From positions 1,358,842 through 1,422,841 of the forward strand of contig NZ_LT707420.1 in the NCBI RefSeq assembly GCF_900155605.1: DNA of 64,000 nt. The letters run 5' to 3'. This document shows, in pieces, positions 1-10,500 of the stretch. Position 1 is the stretch's first letter. Every line of letters begins with the position of its first letter. A program made the position numbers and the translations under genes. Source of the DNA: Actinomyces marseillensis. GTDB taxonomy: Bacteria; Actinomycetota; Actinomycetes; Actinomycetales; Actinomycetaceae. The notes beneath the pieces were generated by a model, which was not told the DNA's origin, ran no database searches, and was given only the letters and a program-made list of their open reading frames with translations.

Positions 1-537
1 GTTCAGCGGAGTGGAGAAAGTAGCGGTCAAAGTGGCGCGGGCGATGGAGTGCTCGATTGCGAGGAATGAATACATCGCTAAAGAGACTTCGTCATCGCAT
101 TGCAAGGTGGGAACGTTAAGCGCGTGGACTGAAAAGATGTAACGGTGCGCACGATCTCCTGCTGGAGGGGCTGCTCCGAAGTAGGAATGATCGCCGTGAT
201 CTCCGCGTAGATGGAAAGCACTTCCATCAAGTTCAAGATCTGAGTGTCCGACTCCTTGGGCAAGAGAAGTGCAAGAAGAAGGCAGATCGATGATCATCCA
301 ATGCCAAAAGCCTGAAGGAGTCGGGGCATCCGGATCAAAACAGGAAACAAAAAAGCTTTCTGTTTCCTGAGGGAATCCGCTCCATTGTAGATGTGGCGAA
401 ACATTTCCTCCCTGTGCGCTATGGAGCAAGGGAAGGGACTGACCATCGATCAGATCGTTGGATTTAAGAGTAAAAGTCTGGGTTGGGGGCAAAGCCTCAT
501 AAGGATTCGGAGCGGTTGGGCGATCGAAGAGATGCAT
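1..537 (-). CDS. PEBP / YbhB-YbcL family protein (C-terminus beyond window)
   Basis: Reading the minus strand from an ATG at 537 gives 179 open codons that run off the window's left edge, so the C-terminus is missing. The translation carries the phosphatidylethanolamine-binding protein signature: DPDAPTPSGFWHW at residues 68-80 and HSYFGAAPPAGDRAHRY at 117-133, which form the anion-binding pocket in this family. An in-frame TGA five codons upstream fixes the start. Bacterial members are 150-185 aa, so only a few residues should be missing. The molecular role of bacterial PEBPs is poorly defined. There is no signal peptide, so it should be cytosolic. It is divergent from the SOS operon; nothing suggests a functional link. 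Confidence 0.85.
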   Translation of the reverse strand, partial: MHLFDRPTAPNPYEALPPTQTFTLKSNDLIDGQSLPLLHSAQGGNVSPHLQWSGFPQETESFFVSCFDPDAPTPSGFWHWMIIDLPSSCTSLAQGVGHSDLELDGSAFHLRGDHGDHSYFGAAPPAGDRAHRYIFSVHALNVPTLQCDDEVSLAMYSFLAIEHSIARATLTATFSTPLN

Positions 538-606
538 GGCGGTATTCTTTCACTTCTTGAAGTGGATCAAAAGTGGACGCAAATGAGGTGGGGCCACATA
601 CACTAA

Positions 607-622
607 TAGAACATTTGTTCGA
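607..622. promoter_or_regulatory. LexA (SOS) box upstream of imuA'
   Basis: TAGAACATTTGTTCGA differs by one base from the symmetric actinobacterial SOS box TCGAAC-N4-GTTCGA. It lies 13 bases before the GTG at 636 and between the divergent PEBP and imuA' genes. Its position argues that the imuA' start is downstream of the box rather than the GTG at 573. A possible -10 (TACACT, 598-603) sits just before it, so LexA would cover the transcription start. Confidence 0.8.
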
Positions 623-635
623 TTGGGGTGGTTGT

Positions 636-1106
636 GTGACGCGTCTAGATATTGCTCGTCAGGTTTTGAACGATGTTGAAACTCGTCTGGGGATTGAGAA
701 AAAGCACGGGTCTTGGGAACGTGTATCAAGCTATGCGGGTGTGTGGGAATTTGGGAATAACTACTCACTACTGACCCGGATTTTCGTGGCGCTCACCGGC
801 GAAGAAAACTCCTGTGCTCTCATAGGCGCTGATGACTTTGGATGGGAATACGCAGCCAAGCAAGGTCTTGATCTTGCGCGTTGCGTGCAAGTTCCATCTT
901 CCGCGGCAGACGCGCGCGTTATCTCTTTGCTTCTTCCTTACTACAGGGTTCTTTATCTCGGAAAGTGCCCCTTAGAGATTGGCGATATGCGTCGTCTCAG
1001 TGCTCAAGTACGTCAAGAAAGAGCTGCACTTTTTACTGCTGTCCCATGGGGAGGAATGAGCAGGCTCTGGTGCGATCAGATGTATGAAAGACGAAAGGCT
1101 GTTTGA
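636..1106 (+). CDS. imuA': ImuA'-like accessory mutagenesis protein
   Basis: A 156-aa product beginning MTRLDIARQVLNDVETRLG, if translation starts at GTG 636 behind a GGGGTGG stretch. The same frame is open back to GTG 573, but that would put the LexA box inside the gene. Identification rests mainly on context: it is the first gene before imuB and dnaE2 under an SOS box, as in mycobacteria, where ImuA' is a RecA-fold-like partner of ImuB. No Walker A motif is visible, so ATP binding is not expected from sequence. It ends one base before the preferred imuB start, which suggests translational coupling. Direct sequence recognition is weaker than for its neighbours. Confidence 0.65.
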   Translation: MTRLDIARQVLNDVETRLGIEKKHGSWERVSSYAGVWEFGNNYSLLTRIFVALTGEENSCALIGADDFGWEYAAKQGLDLARCVQVPSSAADARVISLLLPYYRVLYLGKCPLEIGDMRRLSAQVRQERAALFTAVPWGGMSRLWCDQMYERRKAV

Positions 1107-1107
1107 A

Positions 1108-2697
1108 ATGCGCTATGTCATGGTGTGGATTCCTAATTGGCCTGTGAATTCTTTGGTTGTTGACATTCCTCCCGGAGCTCACGGTGCGATTGAAGCAGGG
1201 GGATATATACAGGTCGTCACTCCGCCTGCTCGAAAATGCGGTGTCAGGCAGGGGATGAAACTGTCCATGGCGCGGTATTTATGTCCTGATCTTTTAGTTC
1301 TGCCATTCGATATGCGCCGGGATATTTCTTCGTTTGAAGTAATTTTGCGAGCATGCGAACAGTGGATCGCTCGAATAGCCTGCATTTATCCGGGGCTTGC
1401 CTGGGCTCCGGCCGCTGGAGCTGCTCGCTGGAGTGGGGGAGAAGCGCAATTAGCTGAAAATCTTGTTGACGCTATTTCAGATTGCACTGGTTCAGAGAGC
1501 AACGTTGGAATAGCTTCTGGTCCTCTTGCAAGTTATGGTGCGGCCAGGCGCGGCATTATCCTTGCCCCAGAAGACACTCAAGATTTTCTTGATCAGCTCG
1601 AAGTTCATCAGTGTCTTTCTCTTTTCCCACCCAAACAGCACAATATACTTTCTCAGTTTGTGCAGACGTGTCATTCTGCTGGGATTACAAGAGGAATCGA
1701 TATTCGGAGAATGGGATCTGCTGCCCTGTATTCGCGGTTTGGCAGCATTGGAAAACATGTATGGGAACTTTTTACGGGAAAAGATCTATGGCTTCCCGAG
1801 AGACAGATTCTTCTCGACGATCTTCAAGCGGAAGAAGAATGTGAGGAGAGCATTGAACGCGAGGAGCAAGTTGCGTTTTGTGCGCGCCGCTTAGCTCATC
1901 AAATCTGCGAGAAGTTGGATTTTTATGGACTGCGTTGTTCCAGTATCGCTGTGAGTGCTCAAGATTCTGCATCGCAATCTTATGAACGGCAATGGTGGGG
2001 GATAGACGGAGAGGAAGATGAAATTGCCGATCGGATTCGATGGCAGTTGGTTGCTTGGTTGTCTGCTTCTGAAAACGAGCAGGGCTTTGTACGCGTGAAT
2101 GTACGGGCTGAACACTGTGAGCGCGTGGGGGCTTCGCGAGCTTTATGGCGGGCTGGTGAGTCACCTCAACGTGATTCTGTTCTGCGAAAAATTTGTGCCT
2201 ATAAAGGTGAAAATGCCATTCGTATTCCTCGGATCCTTCCGGGATATTCACCCACTCAACGCGCAGGATTCGCCTCCGTTGATGAAAGAAAAGAAAAAGA
2301 ACAGGTGACTTGTCTTGAAGGAGGAATCGAAGACGCTCCTTCAAGACTGTGTATCCGTCCATATCCAACGGAAGTCTATGGAAAGGTCGAAGGGGGGCGA
2401 AGAATAGATGTACGTGTTAATGAACGATCTGCTTTGACAAGTAGTCCTCAAGACGTAAAAGTCTGTGCCTTTGGGGAAGAGAAGTGGTATCGCATTCTGT
2501 CCTGGCGTGGACCATGGGCTGTACCTCAACAATGGTGGTGTGAGCCAACTGTGGAGATGTCCCATGACCCGCAGACTCATTACCTTCGAGTGAAGTCTGA
2601 TTCTTCTCCGGATCTGCTTTTGATGTGGAGTCATCATGCGTGGAGCCTCGTGGGGATATATGAGTGTGAGGCTCCTTTTGAGTGTGGATTATCCTGA
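1108..2697 (+). CDS. imuB: ImuB, catalytically inactive Y-family polymerase homolog
   Basis: A 529-aa protein of the DinB/UmuC (Y-family) fold. It begins MRYVMVWIPNWPVNSLVVD, where an active Y-family enzyme would have a D-x-D-x-F-F metal-binding motif. That motif is absent, as is usual for ImuB. In mycobacteria ImuB is the clamp-binding scaffold that recruits DnaE2 for damage-induced mutagenesis. I chose ATG 1108, preceded by GAAAGG, over an in-frame ATG at 1084 that overlaps imuA'. I could not identify a convincing beta-clamp motif. The 3' end overlaps the following SNF2 gene by 62 bases, so the two are almost certainly co-transcribed under the upstream LexA box. Confidence 0.85.
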   Translation: MRYVMVWIPNWPVNSLVVDIPPGAHGAIEAGGYIQVVTPPARKCGVRQGMKLSMARYLCPDLLVLPFDMRRDISSFEVILRACEQWIARIACIYPGLAWAPAAGAARWSGGEAQLAENLVDAISDCTGSESNVGIASGPLASYGAARRGIILAPEDTQDFLDQLEVHQCLSLFPPKQHNILSQFVQTCHSAGITRGIDIRRMGSAALYSRFGSIGKHVWELFTGKDLWLPERQILLDDLQAEEECEESIEREEQVAFCARRLAHQICEKLDFYGLRCSSIAVSAQDSASQSYERQWWGIDGEEDEIADRIRWQLVAWLSASENEQGFVRVNVRAEHCERVGASRALWRAGESPQRDSVLRKICAYKGENAIRIPRILPGYSPTQRAGFASVDERKEKEQVTCLEGGIEDAPSRLCIRPYPTEVYGKVEGGRRIDVRVNERSALTSSPQDVKVCAFGEEKWYRILSWRGPWAVPQQWWCEPTVEMSHDPQTHYLRVKSDSSPDLLLMWSHHAWSLVGIYECEAPFECGLS

Positions 2698-5600
2698 AGA
2701 GATGGACACATCACCGATCCGCGCAGCACTGCTCTCCTGTGGTGAGGAGGGAGCAACGACATGCGTTGGTCACGCTCTATGGGCACAGGGGGCGCTTGCG
2801 TTCAAACGCGGTGACGTTGATGACGTGACATGGGATGAGCAGCGAGTGTGGGCACGGGTACGTGCAAAAGGCGTGTCCTATCGAAGCGAAATCGAATATG
2901 CGCCTTCCTTACCTTTTCCGCATCTACGCCTGAAATGCGCGTGTTTTCTTAACGGAGCCTGCGCTCATGCTGCAGCTTTACTTCAGTGTGCGATGGACAA
3001 TGTGTTCTCTGCACGTGAGGGCCGTACGCATCAACCAGCATGGAACCGTGATCTTGAAATCTTGCTTTCAGCGGACGGAGGAGAATCCTTAGGCCTTGTG
3101 ATTGATGCGCATGATCCTGCAGACCCGGTATGGCTGACTCCAGTGCGTTTGAGCACGGACCACCTACCGCCGCGCAGGTTGAGTTGGGCGGAATTAGCGC
3201 AGTCACGCTGGGGTGGGGTTATTGATGCTCTAGCACCTAAGCAACTGAAACTTCTCCGCCGGTTCTATCAGTGCAGCCGAAAATTACAGGGGCATATTTC
3301 AACGGGATATGACGTTTACCTAGATTCTCTTGGCATGGAGGCGCCGCGCTGGCTATATAGACTTCAATGCGGGGGAGTCGCGCTTTTAACACCGCAGTTT
3401 CAGCGATTTCACTTCGAACTCAGTTCGTCACGCCTCGTGATCGACATGAATCTTACTGAGAAGAGTCTTGAACTTTCGTATCGCCGCCACTATGTGACCA
3501 GAGCAAACGAAGAAATTCCCTTTCCGCGGCAAGCTCCGCATATGTCGCTAACCTTTTGTGACGGCGGTGATGGGGCAATTGCTGAGGAGGATATCGATGA
3601 TGAGTTGCTGCCCGATCAGATCGTTCAGATCCCAATTAAAAGCATTGGAGATTTCCTCTTCAAATGGCTGCCACTATTACGCGAGCGTTTTGAGTGCACC
3701 TCATCGACGGGAACCTTCCCTGTAGAAAACTGCCGGCCAAAACTCCTACTCATTTTGCATCCCAAAAACCGCGTGTGTGCGCAGATCGAATGGGCGTTGG
3801 AATATCACCTCAGAAATAAATGTTTCCGTGTCATTTTGTCTCCCCAGACAAAGTTCTCAGAGCTTGATGAGGATATTCAGCGCGCCTTTAATGATGCACA
3901 TGCTCTCTTACGGCGCTATTTTGCCTCGGCGTCGTTTCATCCAAGTGCGCAGGGCCTTCTTATTCCGCTTCCCCAAGTCCCCGCATTCATACAAGAGATT
4001 GGAGCATGGCCGCTCTCATCGGTGCATTGGGATATCGACGATAGCCTCAGGCAATTAACCCTCACTGAAGAGGCGGCAACTGTTACTGCTGCTATCGAAG
4101 CAACGGATTCTCCCGATTGGTGGGGGCTTCACGTCGCGATCCAAGTTGGTAACGAAAAAATTCCAATTTCACGAGTTTTGAAGGCGCTGTCTTCAGGTGA
4201 AGAATACATTCGTGTTAATGACGGACAATGGGCGCGCCTTGAAGGTATCGACGTCGAACGCCTTCGCGTCCTGCTTCGTGGAGCTGCGCAACTGACGCGA
4301 TCGCGTTCGATTGATGATATTCGTCTTCATACCTCACAACTTGGGCTATGGGAAAGACTGAGTCAGACAGTTGATGTCGCACAAGAAGACCTGCAATGGC
4401 GCTCTCGAACGTCGGCCCTAAAACAACTTGCGCTGCGCGCACAGTCCCATACGGATCAAGATCAAGACCCTCGTCTTCGCCCGTATCAGCTTGAAGGTCG
4501 TAACTGGCTTCACAGCCGGATTTCCTCTGGTTTTGGATGCATTCTTGCCGACGATATGGGACTGGGAAAAACCAGGCAGATCCTCGCAGCAATCGATGCT
4601 CTTCGCGAGGAAGGAAGTCTTGAATCACCCGTCTTGATTCTTGTTCCGACCAGCGTCATTTCAAGCTGGGCAAATGAAGCCGCGAGGTGTTTTCCGCAGC
4701 TCAGGACATGCGTGCTTCGCGCCTCGCATCAGCGAAATCCGCTTGCTTGGGATGGCATCTCACAATCCAACATCGTTATTACTTCACACACGCTCTTCCG
4801 AATGGACCACCTGTTGTGGGACAACCACTCGCTCAGTGGACTCGTCATCGATGAAGCGCAGGTTCTCAAGAATCCGCGCACGATGCTCTATCGAAGTGTG
4901 AAAGAACTCCAGGTTCCCTGGCGAATTTGCATGAGCGGAACTCCCATTGAAAATTCACTCGAGGACCTGTGGTCACTGATGTCTTTGAGTGTCCCCGGCC
5001 TCCTGTCGACGCATGCGCACTTCAATGAGAAATTCCGACGTCCCATTGAAGGGACTCAGCAAGACAGCGCTTTAGAACTTTTGCATACGCTGATTGCTCC
5101 ATTCATCCTTCGCCGTACGAAAGAAGAAGTCACACCTGAACTTCCCGATCGCATTGAAACACTACTTCCCGTTCCCTTAGAAGGGCGACAACGTCAGATT
5201 TACGACCGCTACCTCACTCGTGAACGTGCTCGGCTCCTTCGTATTCAGCTCAACAATGAAGGGGCTCAAGGGCGATTTGAAGTTCTTGCTGCACTCACAC
5301 GGCTGCGACAGCTTTCCCTTGATCCGGCTCTTGTTGATGAGCGCTACGAGGGGGTTGGTTCTGCAAAGATTGATCTGCTGTGTTCGCACCTAGAGCAAAT
5401 TGTTCCTGCAGGTCACCAGGTACTTGTTTTTAGTCAATTCGTGAGTTTTCTTGAACGAATCGATAGCGCTCTGAAACAGCGCGGAATTTCGTGTCTTCTC
5501 CTTGAAGGAAAGACACGAAAGCGTGAGGATGTTATCGCAAAATTTCGTAGAGGAGAAGGATCTGTTTTCCTTATCTCACTGAAGGCTGGGGGAGTTGGGC

Positions 5601-5875
5601 TCACGCTCACTGAAGCAGACTATGTCTACATCATGGACCCTTGGTGGAATCCTTCTGTTGAAGCTCAGGCGATTAATCGTGCACACCGGATCGGGCAAAG
5701 TCGTGCGGTCAATGTCTATCGACTAGTTGCCCAGGAGACGATTGAAGAGAAGGTTTGTCAGCTTCAGGCGCATAAGCAAAGGCTGATCGATACCGTCGTT
5801 GATGATGTTGGTGATGAGAGTACTCAGAGGATGGATATCGATCAATTGATCGAACTTTTGGGAGTGGGAGAGTGA
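2636..5875 (+). CDS. SWIM zinc finger SNF2-family DNA translocase
   Basis: A 1079-aa two-part protein. Near the N-terminus a SWIM finger (C101, C103, C109, H111; CxCx5CxH) probably binds DNA or protein. The C-terminal 450 residues form a SNF2 ATPase: Walker A DDMGLGKT near residue 640, DEAQ box near 737, and the RAHRIGQ arginine-finger motif near 1015. Such proteins move along double-stranded DNA and displace bound factors without unwinding. The start ATG 2636 has GGAG five bases upstream; ATG 2660 is an alternative. It overlaps imuB and precedes dnaE2, so it appears to be part of the SOS transcription unit, which is unusual. Its substrate is unknown. Confidence 0.9.
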   Translation: MRGASWGYMSVRLLLSVDYPEEMDTSPIRAALLSCGEEGATTCVGHALWAQGALAFKRGDVDDVTWDEQRVWARVRAKGVSYRSEIEYAPSLPFPHLRLKCACFLNGACAHAAALLQCAMDNVFSAREGRTHQPAWNRDLEILLSADGGESLGLVIDAHDPADPVWLTPVRLSTDHLPPRRLSWAELAQSRWGGVIDALAPKQLKLLRRFYQCSRKLQGHISTGYDVYLDSLGMEAPRWLYRLQCGGVALLTPQFQRFHFELSSSRLVIDMNLTEKSLELSYRRHYVTRANEEIPFPRQAPHMSLTFCDGGDGAIAEEDIDDELLPDQIVQIPIKSIGDFLFKWLPLLRERFECTSSTGTFPVENCRPKLLLILHPKNRVCAQIEWALEYHLRNKCFRVILSPQTKFSELDEDIQRAFNDAHALLRRYFASASFHPSAQGLLIPLPQVPAFIQEIGAWPLSSVHWDIDDSLRQLTLTEEAATVTAAIEATDSPDWWGLHVAIQVGNEKIPISRVLKALSSGEEYIRVNDGQWARLEGIDVERLRVLLRGAAQLTRSRSIDDIRLHTSQLGLWERLSQTVDVAQEDLQWRSRTSALKQLALRAQSHTDQDQDPRLRPYQLEGRNWLHSRISSGFGCILADDMGLGKTRQILAAIDALREEGSLESPVLILVPTSVISSWANEAARCFPQLRTCVLRASHQRNPLAWDGISQSNIVITSHTLFRMDHLLWDNHSLSGLVIDEAQVLKNPRTMLYRSVKELQVPWRICMSGTPIENSLEDLWSLMSLSVPGLLSTHAHFNEKFRRPIEGTQQDSALELLHTLIAPFILRRTKEEVTPELPDRIETLLPVPLEGRQRQIYDRYLTRERARLLRIQLNNEGAQGRFEVLAALTRLRQLSLDPALVDERYEGVGSAKIDLLCSHLEQIVPAGHQVLVFSQFVSFLERIDSALKQRGISCLLLEGKTRKREDVIAKFRRGEGSVFLISLKAGGVGLTLTEADYVYIMDPWWNPSVEAQAINRAHRIGQSRAVNVYRLVAQETIEEKVCQLQAHKQRLIDTVVDDVGDESTQRMDIDQLIELLGVGE

Positions 5876-5892
5876 AACCCCAGCAATAGCTA

Positions 5893-5908
5893 TCGAACAC
5901 CCGTTCGA
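5893..5908. promoter_or_regulatory. LexA (SOS) box of dnaE2
   Basis: TCGAACACCCGTTCGA is a perfect inverted repeat matching the actinobacterial SOS consensus TCGAAC-N4-GTTCGA. It begins 18 bases after the SNF2 stop codon and abuts the dnaE2 -10 hexamer, so bound LexA would block the spacer between -35 and -10. Confidence 0.93.
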
Positions 5909-5914
5909 TATAAT
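5909..5914 (+). promoter_or_regulatory. dnaE2 -10 element (TATAAT), leaderless
   Basis: A consensus TATAAT follows the LexA box immediately. The GTG start of dnaE2 is six bases further on, at 5921, where transcription would be expected to begin, so the mRNA is probably leaderless. Thus dnaE2 has its own SOS promoter besides any read-through from imuB-SNF2. Confidence 0.75.
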
Positions 5915-5920
5915 AGGGGG

Positions 5921-8900
5921 GTGGTTTCCCATCCTTATGCTGAGTTACACGCGCACTCCTACTTCACGTTTTTAGAGGGAGCAGATGCCCCCGAAGACTA
6001 CATCCTCTGCGCTAAGCAGCTCGGTCTTGACGCTCTTGCTCTGCTAGAGCGCGATGGAATGTACTCCCTGATCCGCTCCTTGCAGGCTGCACGCGAGTCA
6101 TCTTTCCCGTTGATTATTGGAACCGAGCTCACTCTTTCTGCCACTCAGTTTTCTCGCTACGATGGCAACGCCTCGATAGGATCACCTGGCTGGGGGCTCC
6201 CTTGTGGATGGGAAGATACCGGAATTCGCTTACCAATCCTCACGACATCTCAAGACGGATATAGAGACCTGTGCTCGCTGATGAGTGAACGAACACTTGA
6301 GGACGTTGAAGGTGAAAACCCCAGCCACGGCCTCGAAAATATTGCCGAAAATGCGCAGGATATACGGATTTTAACGGGAGGTACCCGCGGGCCTCTCAGA
6401 CGAATTTTGCATGCGCAGGGAAGAAACCAAGCTGATCGTTTTCTCAATGACCTCATTTCCCTGTTCGGGCGCGAGCGCATCATCGTTGAAAGCGTGCTGC
6501 GGCCCGGAGAAGACGACATGGGGGCCGAGCTTGCTGATCTCGCGCACAAACATCGACTTCCTCTTGCTGCTGCCGGTGGCGTCACCATGGCTTCTCCTAA
6601 GTCAAAATATCGAGCGGACCTTCTATGTGCTCTCAGACAGGGTAAATCTTTGGATGAGATTCGCTATCTGCTTCCAGCCCAGCATTCTTTTTTGAAGAGC
6701 GCAGAAGAAATGCTCGCTCTTCATCGCATGGCTCCTCAGGCGGTTTCCAACGCCTCTGGAATTGCGCGTGAATGCTATTACCCGATGTCATTTGATACCT
6801 GGGATTTGCCCGAGATGGAGGTTCCTCAAGGACATACAACAATTTCTTGGCTCACTGCGCTTTCCTATGCAAAAGCGCAGGAACTCTATGGTCCCCGATC
6901 CGCCAACCCGCACGCGTGGGAGGTCATTGACCATGAACTGTCGATTATCGGACAGCTTGACTTTGCTGGCTATTTTCTCATCGTCTACGACATCGTAGAT
7001 TTTTGTCGAAGGCGGGGAATTATGTGCCAAGGACGTGGTTCTGCAGCGAATTCTGCCGTCTGCTATTGCCTTGGGATTACAGCAGTTGATGCTATTCGCC
7101 ATCGAATGCTCTTTGAACGTTTTCTTTCCCCGGGACGCTCAGGAGCCCCAGACATTGATATCGACATCGACAGTGCCCGCCGTGAAGAAGTCATCCAATA
7201 TGTCTACCAACGCTATGGAAGAAGACGTGCCGCTCAAGTGGCAACAGTGATTACATACCGTTCGCAATTGGCCTATAAAGACGCTGCCAGGGCTCTGGGA
7301 ATTGACGCGGCTCACGTTCCAAGCCGAGCTCAGCGAAGGGAAGAAAACCACAGAACAGACACGGCCCCTTCGCAGATGATGCTTACCACCTGTGCCCAGC
7401 TTTTGAGTGGGCTTCCGCGCCATATGGGGATTCACTCCGGAGGGATGATCCTCAGCAAGCATCCCGTGAGCCAGATCTGCCCCATTCGTTGGGCAAAAAC
7501 GCGGGGGAGAAGCGTGATCCAATGGGATAAGGAGGATTGTGCAGACGCCGGATTGGTGAAGTTTGACCTCCTTGGACTGGGAATGCTTGGAGCCTTGGGA
7601 TCGATTTTTGAGTCTCTTGAGAAGGAAGGAATTCGAAATTCGCAAGGAAAAATTCTTTCCCTCTATGAACTCGAAGACGAAGACCCGCGAGTGTATGACT
7701 TGTTGTGCGCGGCAGACACGATGGGAGTCTTTCAAGTTGAATCTCGCGCGCAGATGAATACTTTGCCCAGGCTTCAGCCGCGTTGCTTTTACGACATTGT
7801 CATTGAAGTCGCTCTCATTCGTCCCGGTCCTATTCAAGGCGAATCGGTGCATCCATATTTGCGCCGTCGTCGGGGGGAAGAAAGGGTGAGCTATCTTCAT
7901 CCTCTTCTACGTCCGGCTTTAGAAAAGACCTTGGGAGTTCCTCTCTTTCAAGAACAGATGATGCACATTGCTATGGATGTTGCTGGCTTTTCTGCCGCTC
8001 AGGCTGATGAATTACGCCGAGCCATGGGTTCTTCTCGTAGCGCGGAGAAAATGAAAAAATTGCGCGGATCTTTCATCGAGGGGATGAAAGAGCGGGGTAT
8101 CCCGATAGATATTTGCGAAGAGGTCTTTCGGCAGGTCCAGGGATTTGCCGACTTTGGCTTTCCTGAATCGCACTCTTTTTCTTTCGCCTATATCGTTTAT
8201 GCGTCCGCTTGGCTTAAGGTCCACTATCCCGAGCACTTTTATGCGGGGATCCTTTCTCATCAACCCATGGGTTTTTATTCCCCTTCCTCTCTTGTTCACG
8301 ATGCACGAGGCCACGGCTTGCGTGTGTGCGCACCTGACGTGAACCTTTCGCTAGAGTCCACGCAGGTACTTCCGCTGAGCAAGATTGTGCAGATCATTGG
8401 TGCTGAGCGAGCACAGGAAGCATGCGGAATAGGAATGGAAGGAAAAGAAGGGCTGGTTGATATCCATCCCGAGTGGGGGATCGTTCTTGGCCTCGATATG
8501 ATCCGAGGCCTCGATAAGGGGAGCATCAAAAGGATCCTCCGAGGGCGGGAGGAAGGCCCCTATCAAGATCTTGAGGATCTTGCCTCGCGCGCTAGGCTTC
8601 GCAGCACAGATCTTGAAAGACTATCTCAAGCTGGTGCTGTCGATTCAATGGGATATCAGCGCCGCGAAGGAATTTGGGCCAGTGGCGTCTTAGGACAAGA
8701 TGGTGGCGAAGATCGGGAGTATCAACCGATGTTGGAAGGACTTGGGATGGAATACCATCTTCCTTCCCTTCCACCGCTCGATTCTGTTGCGCAGATGAAT
8801 CTGGATTATGAAGCCATGGGCCTATCTGTTACGAGCCATCCTTTTGCGTTGATCCGAAAACAGATGAACGCACAGGGAGTAATTCCGGCCTGCGAGATCC

Positions 8901-9187
8901 TCCGTCAAGAAAATCAGTCGAGGATCAGAGTTGCAGGAATTATCACGCATCGACAGCGTCCGTGCAGCGGAGGAGGGGTACTCTTTCTCAGCTTGGAAGA
9001 CGAGAGCGGCAGCGTCAACGTGACGGTTACAGAGGCGACGTGGAAGCACCATCGACGTGAAGTGATGGCCTCTGCGGTAGTCGTAGATGGGTACTGCGAA
9101 AATGCTTATGGTACGCGAAGCGTCCGAGCTTTTCGGATCTATCCGTTTTCTACTCAGCTGCGTTTGAGCTCTCGAGATTTCCGTTGA
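5921..9187 (+). CDS. dnaE2: Error-prone DNA polymerase DnaE2
   Basis: A 1088-aa C-family polymerase of the typical length for DnaE2 (replicative DnaE1 is near 1180). The N-terminal PHP domain starts at once (ELHAHSYFTFLEGA). The palm motif GAPDIDIDID around residue 410 supplies two catalytic aspartates. Finger and tandem helix-hairpin-helix regions follow, with an OB-fold near the C-terminus (RIRVAGIITHRQRPCSGGG). In mycobacteria it makes damage-induced mutations with ImuA' and ImuB. The GTG start is supported by the PHP motif position and by a -10 six bases upstream. It is followed by a convergent AI-2E transporter gene with a small hairpin between. Confidence 0.95.
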   Translation: MVSHPYAELHAHSYFTFLEGADAPEDYILCAKQLGLDALALLERDGMYSLIRSLQAARESSFPLIIGTELTLSATQFSRYDGNASIGSPGWGLPCGWEDTGIRLPILTTSQDGYRDLCSLMSERTLEDVEGENPSHGLENIAENAQDIRILTGGTRGPLRRILHAQGRNQADRFLNDLISLFGRERIIVESVLRPGEDDMGAELADLAHKHRLPLAAAGGVTMASPKSKYRADLLCALRQGKSLDEIRYLLPAQHSFLKSAEEMLALHRMAPQAVSNASGIARECYYPMSFDTWDLPEMEVPQGHTTISWLTALSYAKAQELYGPRSANPHAWEVIDHELSIIGQLDFAGYFLIVYDIVDFCRRRGIMCQGRGSAANSAVCYCLGITAVDAIRHRMLFERFLSPGRSGAPDIDIDIDSARREEVIQYVYQRYGRRRAAQVATVITYRSQLAYKDAARALGIDAAHVPSRAQRREENHRTDTAPSQMMLTTCAQLLSGLPRHMGIHSGGMILSKHPVSQICPIRWAKTRGRSVIQWDKEDCADAGLVKFDLLGLGMLGALGSIFESLEKEGIRNSQGKILSLYELEDEDPRVYDLLCAADTMGVFQVESRAQMNTLPRLQPRCFYDIVIEVALIRPGPIQGESVHPYLRRRRGEERVSYLHPLLRPALEKTLGVPLFQEQMMHIAMDVAGFSAAQADELRRAMGSSRSAEKMKKLRGSFIEGMKERGIPIDICEEVFRQVQGFADFGFPESHSFSFAYIVYASAWLKVHYPEHFYAGILSHQPMGFYSPSSLVHDARGHGLRVCAPDVNLSLESTQVLPLSKIVQIIGAERAQEACGIGMEGKEGLVDIHPEWGIVLGLDMIRGLDKGSIKRILRGREEGPYQDLEDLASRARLRSTDLERLSQAGAVDSMGYQRREGIWASGVLGQDGGEDREYQPMLEGLGMEYHLPSLPPLDSVAQMNLDYEAMGLSVTSHPFALIRKQMNAQGVIPACEILRQENQSRIRVAGIITHRQRPCSGGGVLFLSLEDESGSVNVTVTEATWKHHRREVMASAVVVDGYCENAYGTRSVRAFRIYPFSTQLRLSSRDFR

Positions 9188-9189
9188 AA

Positions 9190-9204
9190 CTTGCGTGCCG
9201 CAAG
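9190..9204. terminator. Small hairpin between convergent genes
   Basis: CTTGCG-tgc-CGCAAG forms a six-base-pair stem with a three-base loop in the 17 bases between the dnaE2 stop and the opposing AI-2E stop. It has no T tract, so a role as a bidirectional terminator is only plausible. Confidence 0.35.
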
Positions 9205-10500
9205 CTAGCTACGTTCACGCGGGGTATAAAGCTCAGCGAAGATCGCCCAAGCAACCGCAATAATCGGAATCGCGATGATCGCGCCGAGGAGTCCAGCGGT
9301 GAAGGTTCCCACCATGACGCCGATACCGACGACGACCGGGTGGAGAGAAACTTGGTGCCCCATGATGAGCGGCTGGAGAATATGCCCTTCGATCTGGCCA
9401 ATCAGTGCGATTCCCAGACCGACGATAGCTGCTGTAATAATGCCCTTTGCTGCAAGAGCAACGATCATTGCGAGGATCATCGCCGTGGGGGCACCAATCA
9501 GGGGGATGAACGCGCCGATGAAAACCAAAATACCAAGAGCAGGGGCGACGGGGACCCCGATGCATTGGAGGAAAATTCCAGCAAAGAGGCCGTCTGTTCC
9601 AGCCACCAGCATCGTTCCTCGTGCATAGCCGGAGAAGGTGCTCCAGCCTGCTTGTGCAGCTCGATTGGTGATCTTGCGTCGGTGATAGGGGAGTAAGGAA
9701 ACGAACCAGTCCCACATCTGTCCGCCGGAGTGCAAGAAGAAGATCGTGATGAAGAAGGCGAGGACCAATACCGAGGCGACGACCGCAGCATTGGAAACAT
9801 TCGCTAGAGTCTCGCTGAGCAGTCCTGACCAATTGGACGCGATAAAGTTCTTGCCTTGCGCAATAAGAGTTTCGTTTAAATGGCTGAGATCATTGAGCGG
9901 GATCTGGAAAGGAAGATGCAGACGAGCAACAAGATCAGAGAGCTTTCCCAGACCGTTACTCACTTCTGAAAGAAGATTCGGCCACTGTCCCGCGATCGAG
10001 GACACGACAAGCGTCATCAGCGCAACAAAAGTTCCAATAAACGCGAAGAGCGCAGCGAAAACTGCAATCCAGCGGTTCACCCACCGGTTAAGGTAATTCG
10101 TCAAAGGATTCAAAATCGCGGTAAGCAACAGGGCAACGAAAATTGCAATAAATACCGGCGTTGCTTGGGCGATTGCGAAGACAACGGCGGAGATTACGAT
10201 GAGTACGCCGATGATCGCCCACGATCCATAGCCTGCTTGCGCAAGCCACCGGGGGATCAGAGGTTTGCGAGCATCCGAAGAGGAAGGACGCGCACCCCGG
10301 CGCTCGACGCGCTGGGGTGGAACCCACTGAACTGTTCGACGCGGAGACAGAGCACGGGGCTCAATCTTGCTCTTACGACCGGAACGCAGTCTCTGCGCAG
10401 TTGAAGAGCCGAGACGCTGCGCCCCTCGGCTCAGTGAATCAACGATTGCGCGAGAATGGCGAACCAATCTCATTGATTTGTCGGGGGACTGTTTACTCAT
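9205..10500 (-). CDS. AI-2E family transporter (membrane permease)
   Basis: A 431-aa polytopic membrane protein. About 95 basic, soluble N-terminal residues precede paired hydrophobic helices (around residues 95-135 and 145-170), a central soluble segment around 175-240 and four or more C-terminal helices. The conserved tail ILVFIGAFIPLIGAPTAM is typical of the AI-2E/YhhQ-PerM-like exporter family, named for the AI-2 exporter TqsA. Most members have unknown substrates; some export Na+ or small molecules. The start ATG overlaps the stop of the upstream acyl-CoA ligase, so the two form an operon. The basic extension is longer than in many homologs. Confidence 0.85.
   Translation of the reverse strand: MSKQSPDKSMRLVRHSRAIVDSLSRGAQRLGSSTAQRLRSGRKSKIEPRALSPRRTVQWVPPQRVERRGARPSSSDARKPLIPRWLAQAGYGSWAIIGVLIVISAVVFAIAQATPVFIAIFVALLLTAILNPLTNYLNRWVNRWIAVFAALFAFIGTFVALMTLVVSSIAGQWPNLLSEVSNGLGKLSDLVARLHLPFQIPLNDLSHLNETLIAQGKNFIASNWSGLLSETLANVSNAAVVASVLVLAFFITIFFLHSGGQMWDWFVSLLPYHRRKITNRAAQAGWSTFSGYARGTMLVAGTDGLFAGIFLQCIGVPVAPALGILVFIGAFIPLIGAPTAMILAMIVALAAKGIITAAIVGLGIALIGQIEGHILQPLIMGHQVSLHPVVVGIGVMVGTFTAGLLGAIIAIPIIAVAWAIFAELYTPRERS

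Follow-up and report, generated by a model that had tools for sequence, protein, structure and literature searches.

The ImuA'-ImuB-DnaE2 cassette of the Mycobacterium type is the closest described counterpart of the locus considered here, which lies in a 64,000-nucleotide stretch of the 2.0-Mb genome of Actinomyces marseillensis (C2:1358842-1422841; hereafter the window). Counterparts of the three genes (that of imuA' a probable one), with LexA boxes, are present in the window, and the locus differs from the cassette in that a gene for an SNF2-type motor protein with a SWIM-type zinc motif (hereafter SNF2) stands between imuB and dnaE2, joined in many relatives by a thymidine kinase gene, tdk. 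The available portions of four mutasome papers (PMC10421592, PMC6511836, PMC12926913 and PMC8151990) name no SNF2 member; in those portions "snf2" occurs 0 times in PMC6511836 and PMC8151990, and "helicase" 0 times in PMC12926913 and PMC10421592. Open-access full text returned only off-topic papers for imuB with SNF2 and nothing for dnaE2 with SNF2 and SOS (supplements lay outside the search), and the imuB-SNF2-dnaE2 arrangement looks unreported in the open-access literature searched. The reading that we favor, with a probability of roughly 60%, is that SNF2 is an ordinary resident bacterial SWIM-SNF2 double-stranded DNA translocase that has its own role, and which would have been captured into the imu operon and be transcribed in the SOS response for a task independent of the mutasome.

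The gene order on the + strand, taken from the open reading frames (ORFs) of the window, is imuA', imuB, SNF2 and dnaE2. The dnaE2 gene (5921..9187, +) belongs to the error-prone DNA polymerase subfamily, matching NF004225 at 1179 bits against a cut-off of 939, and imuB (1084..2697, +), for the Y-family-like mutasome scaffold, carries an IMS domain above the Pfam cut-off (PF00817, 40.9 against 23.2 bits), fits a profile of ImuB relatives and has relatives at the same place. The gene for the accessory factor ImuA' (636..1106, +) matches NF058630 below its cut-off (50.3 against 65 bits), while its position and relatives fit; its longest ORF opens at 573, but the start is probably near GTG 636, because the LexA box described below would otherwise fall inside the gene. 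The SNF2 gene, for which the longest ORF (2636..5875, +) gives 1079 residues in frame, is the sole PF00176 match found in the genome. The ORF, the Pfam matches to the motor and the NF004225 match of the downstream neighbor bear out the original prediction of an SNF2 translocase gene at 2636-5875 between imuB and dnaE2.

A pattern scan places a LexA/SOS box with one mismatch ahead of imuA' (TAGAACATTTGTTCGA, 607..622, +) and a perfect box between the SNF2 stop codon and dnaE2 (TCGAACACCCGTTCGA, 5893..5908, +); the latter is the only perfect copy of TCGAACN4GTTCGA in the whole genome. Sites with at most one mismatch number 14 genome-wide, against 10 for the reversed pattern, and two of these precede lexA (TIGR00498 match at 1764997) and one a gene read by eye as recA; the boxes of the mutasome operon are of the same motif as that ahead of lexA. 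When up to three mismatches are allowed, boxes are no commoner in the window than chance (50 against a shuffle mean of 40.9). Across the 35 genomes of the genus to which the window belongs, a box with at most one mismatch lies ahead of imuA' in 29 of the 32 loci with an imuA' match and ahead of dnaE2 in 27 of the 32 with a dnaE2 match; genomes G021, G023 and G025 (genome, locus and genus labels are our own) were scored by the script as having none before dnaE2, the protein match covering a box that is visible at the locus. Ahead of SNF2, no box with at most one mismatch was found at any of the 35 genus loci (two have 2-mismatch matches), nor within 800 bases upstream of any of 40 unlinked SNF2 genes, 38 of them from other genera or families and two of them genus paralogues; three of the 40 have a 2-mismatch match near the start. 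On these counts the idea of an SNF2-specific LexA box was dropped. A scan of 400-9400 for sigma-70 sites, other promoter types being outside it, gave 3 sites where 6.6 were expected, with none on the + strand, and a sigma-70-like promoter ahead of SNF2 was likewise abandoned, as nothing rose above chance.

Because of the perfect box at 5893-5908, SNF2 closes the set of genes behind the imuA' box, and dnaE2 is able to start a unit of its own. From this arrangement dnaE2 probably has its own SOS promoter, and the unit read from the imuA' box would be imuA'-imuB-SNF2, with dnaE2 readable also from its own box. The earlier proposal that SNF2 shares the imuA' LexA promoter is supported insofar as the box at 607-622 heads the unit and SNF2 has no good one; the perfect box ahead of dnaE2 had been missed. 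Damage induction of SNF2 would be expected, since the gene lies inside the operon, lacks a good box and follows imuA' and imuB almost or entirely without a gap. Within the genus, fewer than 70 bases separate the imuB and SNF2 protein matches in 18 of the 31 loci that have both. This tight packing behind imuB, together with the missing box, is a better argument for joint expression than the conserved neighborhood: the flanking genes (TrmL-like and PEBP-like upstream, several downstream; named by eye) are conserved with and without SNF2, so the region is syntenic generally and conservation of the neighborhood is weaker proof.

The overlap with imuB, originally given as 62 bases, holds for the longest SNF2 ORF, which shares that number with the imuB ORF 1084-2697, but is probably overstated. 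In two relatives, G024 and G026 (identity 58-59%), no start codon precedes the column of window residue 17, which makes GTG 2684 or ATG 2702 the more likely start, and among 18 aligned genus proteins the first ~25 residues are unconserved. The true overlap is then probably 14 bases (GTG 2684) or none (ATG 2702), although a 91% identical relative, G018, retains the long ORF, which counts against the shorter start.

The SNF2 protein has a two-lobed motor with intact motifs, recovered by Pfam, by motif patterns, and by hmmsearch and Foldseek against the PDB. The N-terminal half of the motor (4484..5326, +; DDMGLGKT, DEAQ, SGTP) matches PF00176 SNF2-rel_dom over residues 617-897 at 203 bits (cut-off 24.9), and its C-terminal half (5366..5695, +; SLKAGGVGL, RAHRIGQ) matches PF00271 Helicase_C over residues 911-1020 at 79.6 bits (cut-off 23.5). 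Most motor motifs are invariant across the 18 aligned genus proteins. In the pattern count of locus and unlinked SNF2 proteins, the strict patterns overlook motifs V/VI or DEAQ in some rows. Upstream of the motor lies a SWIM-type zinc motif, CACFLNGACAH (residues 101-111; 2936..2968, +), in which C101, C103, C109 and H111 are invariant in 18 of 18 aligned proteins. The SWIM assignment rests on this zinc pattern, because the Pfam SWIM model PF04434 gives no match to the window protein even at E<=1; seven of the 18 genus proteins match it, at best with E 0.012. The pattern CxC-x5-CxH is present in all 32 SNF2 proteins from the locus and, together with the motor, is shared by unlinked actinobacterial SWIM-SNF2 proteins (34 of the 38 in the tree set described below), the unlinked genes differing in having no LexA box (0/40, as above).

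The nearest motors by sequence and predicted fold include the Sulfolobus core 1z63, Mot1, CSB/ERCC6 and ISWI, and several of these strip or remodel bound proteins. The N-terminal half of the protein has 0 sequence relatives in the PDB, and the AlphaFold model is middling, with a mean predicted local distance difference test score of 74.7 and a predicted template modeling score of 0.49. Named families with which the motor is shared do not include the protein as a member. The best NCBIfam match over the motor half is NF053675 (pilus expression-regulating Snf2; 394 bits, cut-off 1100), and NF058637 (SCO1167/SCO6262 helicase) matches there at 366 bits against a cut-off of 1200. RapA of Escherichia coli, which acts in RNA polymerase recycling, also has an SNF2-type motor, but identity with RapA was rejected, as its model scores 22 bits against a cut-off of 576.

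Conservation of the imuB-SNF2 pair, which the original prediction had set as its own test, was found throughout much of the genus and in four further genera. An SNF2 match at E<=1e-20 is present in every one of the 35 genus genomes, counting that of the window. In 29 of them imuA'-imuB-SNF2-dnaE2 stand together, although frames are broken in some and insertions interrupt others, as in G033, where nearly 5 kb, with tdk inside, separates imuB from SNF2. The linkage endures while SNF2 identity drops to ~40%. Elsewhere in the genus the locus is rearranged or incomplete. Short contigs show imuA'-imuB-tdk-SNF2 in G017 and tdk-SNF2-dnaE2 in G029, an 88% complete assembly with no ImuB; and SNF2 is alone at the locus in G008 and G032. 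The locus has also been split in two ways, dnaE2 having departed from imuA'-imuB-SNF2 in G030 (L067) and SNF2-dnaE2 standing ~13 kb from imuA'-imuB in G015 (L051/L052). In nine genus genomes, SNF2 and dnaE2 are separated by an opposite-strand gene that resembles a zinc alcohol dehydrogenase (by eye; cluster c14, e.g. L055:8523-9587 in G019).

In a family sample of 161 genomes, with cut-offs of E<=1e-40 for ImuB and E<=1e-110 for SNF2, 95 carry both proteins (two match tables compared by eye), and in 26 of the 95 the two genes lie within ~5 kb on one contig. Fifteen of these 26 are members of the genus, and the other 11 are spread over four further genera: g19 (G150, G167), g23 (G171, G183, G194, G200, G206, G212), g27 (G134, G157) and g28 (G061); in G220 the pair is divided by a contig break. 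As far as the contigs reach, the layout in g19 and g23 is an imuA' region with a box, imuB, tdk, SNF2, a LexA box and dnaE2, and that in g27 and g28 is similar without tdk. Some of these loci are damaged, the frame of SNF2 being broken in G194 (L219) and that of imuB in G157 (L223). With linkage in five genera, the idea of a one-strain oddity was dropped. In a class sample of 197 genomes, in which SNF2 was counted at E<=1e-150 only, both genes occur in 38 members of other families. The two are linked in 0/38 and never come closer than ~48 kb on one contig, though many of these assemblies are drafts that place them on separate contigs; linkage outside the family was dropped at this cut-off and sampling.

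In a tree of 70 SNF2 proteins, all 32 locus proteins fall on one side of a branch with a Shimodaira-Hasegawa-like approximate likelihood ratio test value of 99, and four unlinked proteins from three genera (G035, G050, G064, G070) are nested among them. This topology fits a single old entry into the locus with later exit. G039 and G053 were excluded for their long branches, and the 34 genus rows were thinned by 14; the locus copy of G017, which is in pieces, is in neither tree. A second SNF2, on a different branch and without a LexA box, occurs in G014 (L104) and G017 (L107). Among the matches listed, one from a contig deposited under the name Vibrio cholerae strain 35D (L140), 40% identical to the window SNF2, ranks with the actinobacterial proteins; the assembly is perhaps contaminated or misnamed.

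The evidence that bears most directly on what SNF2 does comes from the 55 genomes searched in the five genera (the genus, g19, g23, g27 and g28). Both parts (SNF2 plus imuB, dnaE2 or the two) are present in 45 of the 55, some with broken frames, the split loci of G030 and G015 included and G029 counted on its dnaE2. Four genomes (G008, G032, G127 and G154) hold SNF2 with the mutasome lost or decayed, five (G052, G056, G131, G135 and G217) hold a mutasome with no SNF2 at the locus nor anywhere at E<=1e-110, and one, G060, has neither; these absences hang on the cut-offs given, and G135 is 80% complete. ImuB was not found in G008 at E<=1e-4 or in G032, G127 and G154 at E<=1e-40, and imuA', searched for at the SNF2 loci, was not found at those of G008, G032 and G127. 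The DnaE matches that remain in G008, G032, G127 and G060 are 28-32% identical, the level of the replicative enzyme, where DnaE2 of other species stands at ~50%. In G154 (L222) imuA', imuB (as fragments) and dnaE2 are decayed beside a whole SNF2. In all four genomes SNF2 is full-length with Walker A and RAHRIGQ, and LexA is present with boxes ahead of lexA; no LexA box lies within 450 bases of SNF2 in G008, G032 or G127. The usual flanking genes stand on both sides of SNF2 in G008 and G127, and the mutasome genes were therefore removed around a spared SNF2, while G032 keeps one recognized flanking gene, downstream. Because the losses are separate and go both ways, SNF2 is not an obligatory member of the mutasome. 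Where the mutasome is present, three pairs of genomes give SNF2 ratios of non-synonymous to synonymous substitution (Ka/Ks) of 0.120, 0.127 and 0.085, which indicates purifying selection; imuB in the same pairs gives 0.138-0.203 and dnaE2, in two of them, 0.056-0.080, so that SNF2 lies below imuB and, in two pairs, above dnaE2.

These losses weigh against the possibility that SNF2 is a working part of the mutasome, which would meet ImuB at stalled forks and remodel the fork or strip proteins from it so that DnaE2 could extend past the lesion. We regard this as unlikely. The shared operon and SOS box, the short or overlapping gap to imuB and the linkage in five genera all agree with it, as does G030, where dnaE2 moved and SNF2 stayed with imuA'-imuB; in G015, however, SNF2 stayed with dnaE2, ~13 kb from imuB. 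Against it also stand the four genomes that keep SNF2 without a working mutasome and the five, of the five genera, that keep the mutasome without SNF2, to which the class sample adds that 41 of 80 ImuB-bearing genomes have no SNF2 at E<=1e-150 and that in the rest, the window apart, the two are unlinked. The mycobacterial mutasome is moreover described, in PMC10421592, as "minimally comprising" DnaE2, ImuA' and ImuB. The original prediction had proposed for SNF2 just such a helper role, in clearing proteins or remodeling stalled forks before error-prone synthesis; given the separate losses both ways, the 0/40 boxes at unlinked genes and the 0/38 linkage in other families, that role is not established, and the prediction overall is partly supported.

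SNF2 might instead be a passenger, placed by history, transcribed mostly from an internal or read-through promoter and holding a position without functional meaning. The high synteny, with flanks conserved whether or not SNF2 is there, would suit such an account, as would the presence of tdk and of the opposite-strand dehydrogenase in the same intergenic spaces at some loci and their absence at others. The short imuB-SNF2 gaps leave little promoter room, however, the scan of 400-9400 gave no sigma-70 site on the + strand, and the linkage outlasts divergence of SNF2 to ~40% identity; we consider this possibility, too, improbable.

Eukaryotes pair an SNF2 enzyme, Rad5/HLTF, with Rev1, a Y-family scaffold. 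By analogy, SNF2 could have become a partner of ImuB in this lineage and so form a bacterial equivalent of the Rad5/HLTF-Rev1 pair; it would be recruited to stalled forks during SOS and strip or remodel there so that DnaE2 could act, with a second, constitutive role to explain how it outlived the mutasome in some species. The parallel is one of analogy only; no RING or HIRAN domain is among the Pfam matches of the window SNF2, and we hold this bolder version to be more doubtful still. A phage-defense helicase (ZorD-, DpdE- or DrmD-like) lodged beside the mutasome is very improbable and was dropped, since the PADLOC matches to DpdE (477 bits) and ZorD (327 bits) over the motor half and the fifth place of ZorD by Foldseek among many SNF2 motors reflect the shared motor only, the NCBIfam cut-offs are unmet (ZorD 211/1500, DrmD 56/950 bits), and the gene is in 35/35 genus genomes, unlike typical defense genes.

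What we favor, then, is a resident translocase captured by the imu operon. SNF2 would have entered the imuA'-imuB-dnaE2 locus once, long ago, in a common ancestor of some lineages of a single actinobacterial family, and would in this clade be transcribed from the imuA' LexA promoter during SOS and made in larger amounts. With less certainty, it may move along double-stranded DNA by ATP hydrolysis and may displace or remodel proteins that block the way where DNA is damaged, stalled RNA polymerase being one example. The task would be useful with or without DnaE2, and SNF2 would thus be no obligatory mutasome subunit; it probably assists when DNA is damaged, from outside the error-prone copying machinery. 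Bacillus subtilis YwqA and HepA and Mycobacterium tuberculosis HelZ are candidates that we take to be possible named relatives. YwqA and HepA are described, in PMC7385302, as poorly characterized Swi2/Snf2 enzymes interacting with RNA polymerase.

Several points count against this account. Co-transcription and SOS induction of SNF2 are read from the gene map and its translocase activity from motifs, and the roadblock role draws on resemblance to YwqA and HepA, remote relatives that offer a hint. G154 still has LexA boxes ahead of its decayed imuA' and dnaE2, and SNF2 may remain SOS-linked there. That 45 of 55 genomes hold both parts means that the locus has long stayed together, and some functional tie may exist. 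Synonymous sites of SNF2 are saturated in the two pairs tried after mutasome loss. The tree, finally, gives two changes, one of them forced by the starred branches, and the branch uniting the locus proteins is short (0.043); a second origin of the linkage is possible.

A further gene of the locus, tdk (PF00265), separates imuB from SNF2 or dnaE2 in 8 of the 35 genus genomes and in the fetched g19 and g23 loci (for example L039:5288-5878 in G003, L073 in G048, L214-L219 and L225-L227). It still adjoins SNF2 in G127, though the mutasome is gone, and a thymidine kinase gene lies away from the SNF2 locus in G008 and G032. No thymidine kinase match was found anywhere in 7 of the 11 genomes tested, that of the window included. 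Open-access full text gave no on-topic paper joining thymidine kinase and imuB, and finding a salvage kinase within an operon for SOS mutagenesis may be more unusual than finding SNF2 there.

The locus carries a warning that operon membership should not be read as complex membership. It also provides a natural experiment, in which close relatives have the mutasome with SNF2, the mutasome only or SNF2 only. If SNF2 is SOS-induced, a double-stranded DNA translocase would be tied to error-prone synthesis across a clade, and this would open the question, itself poorly characterized, of how a bacterial SNF2 motor acts on damaged DNA.

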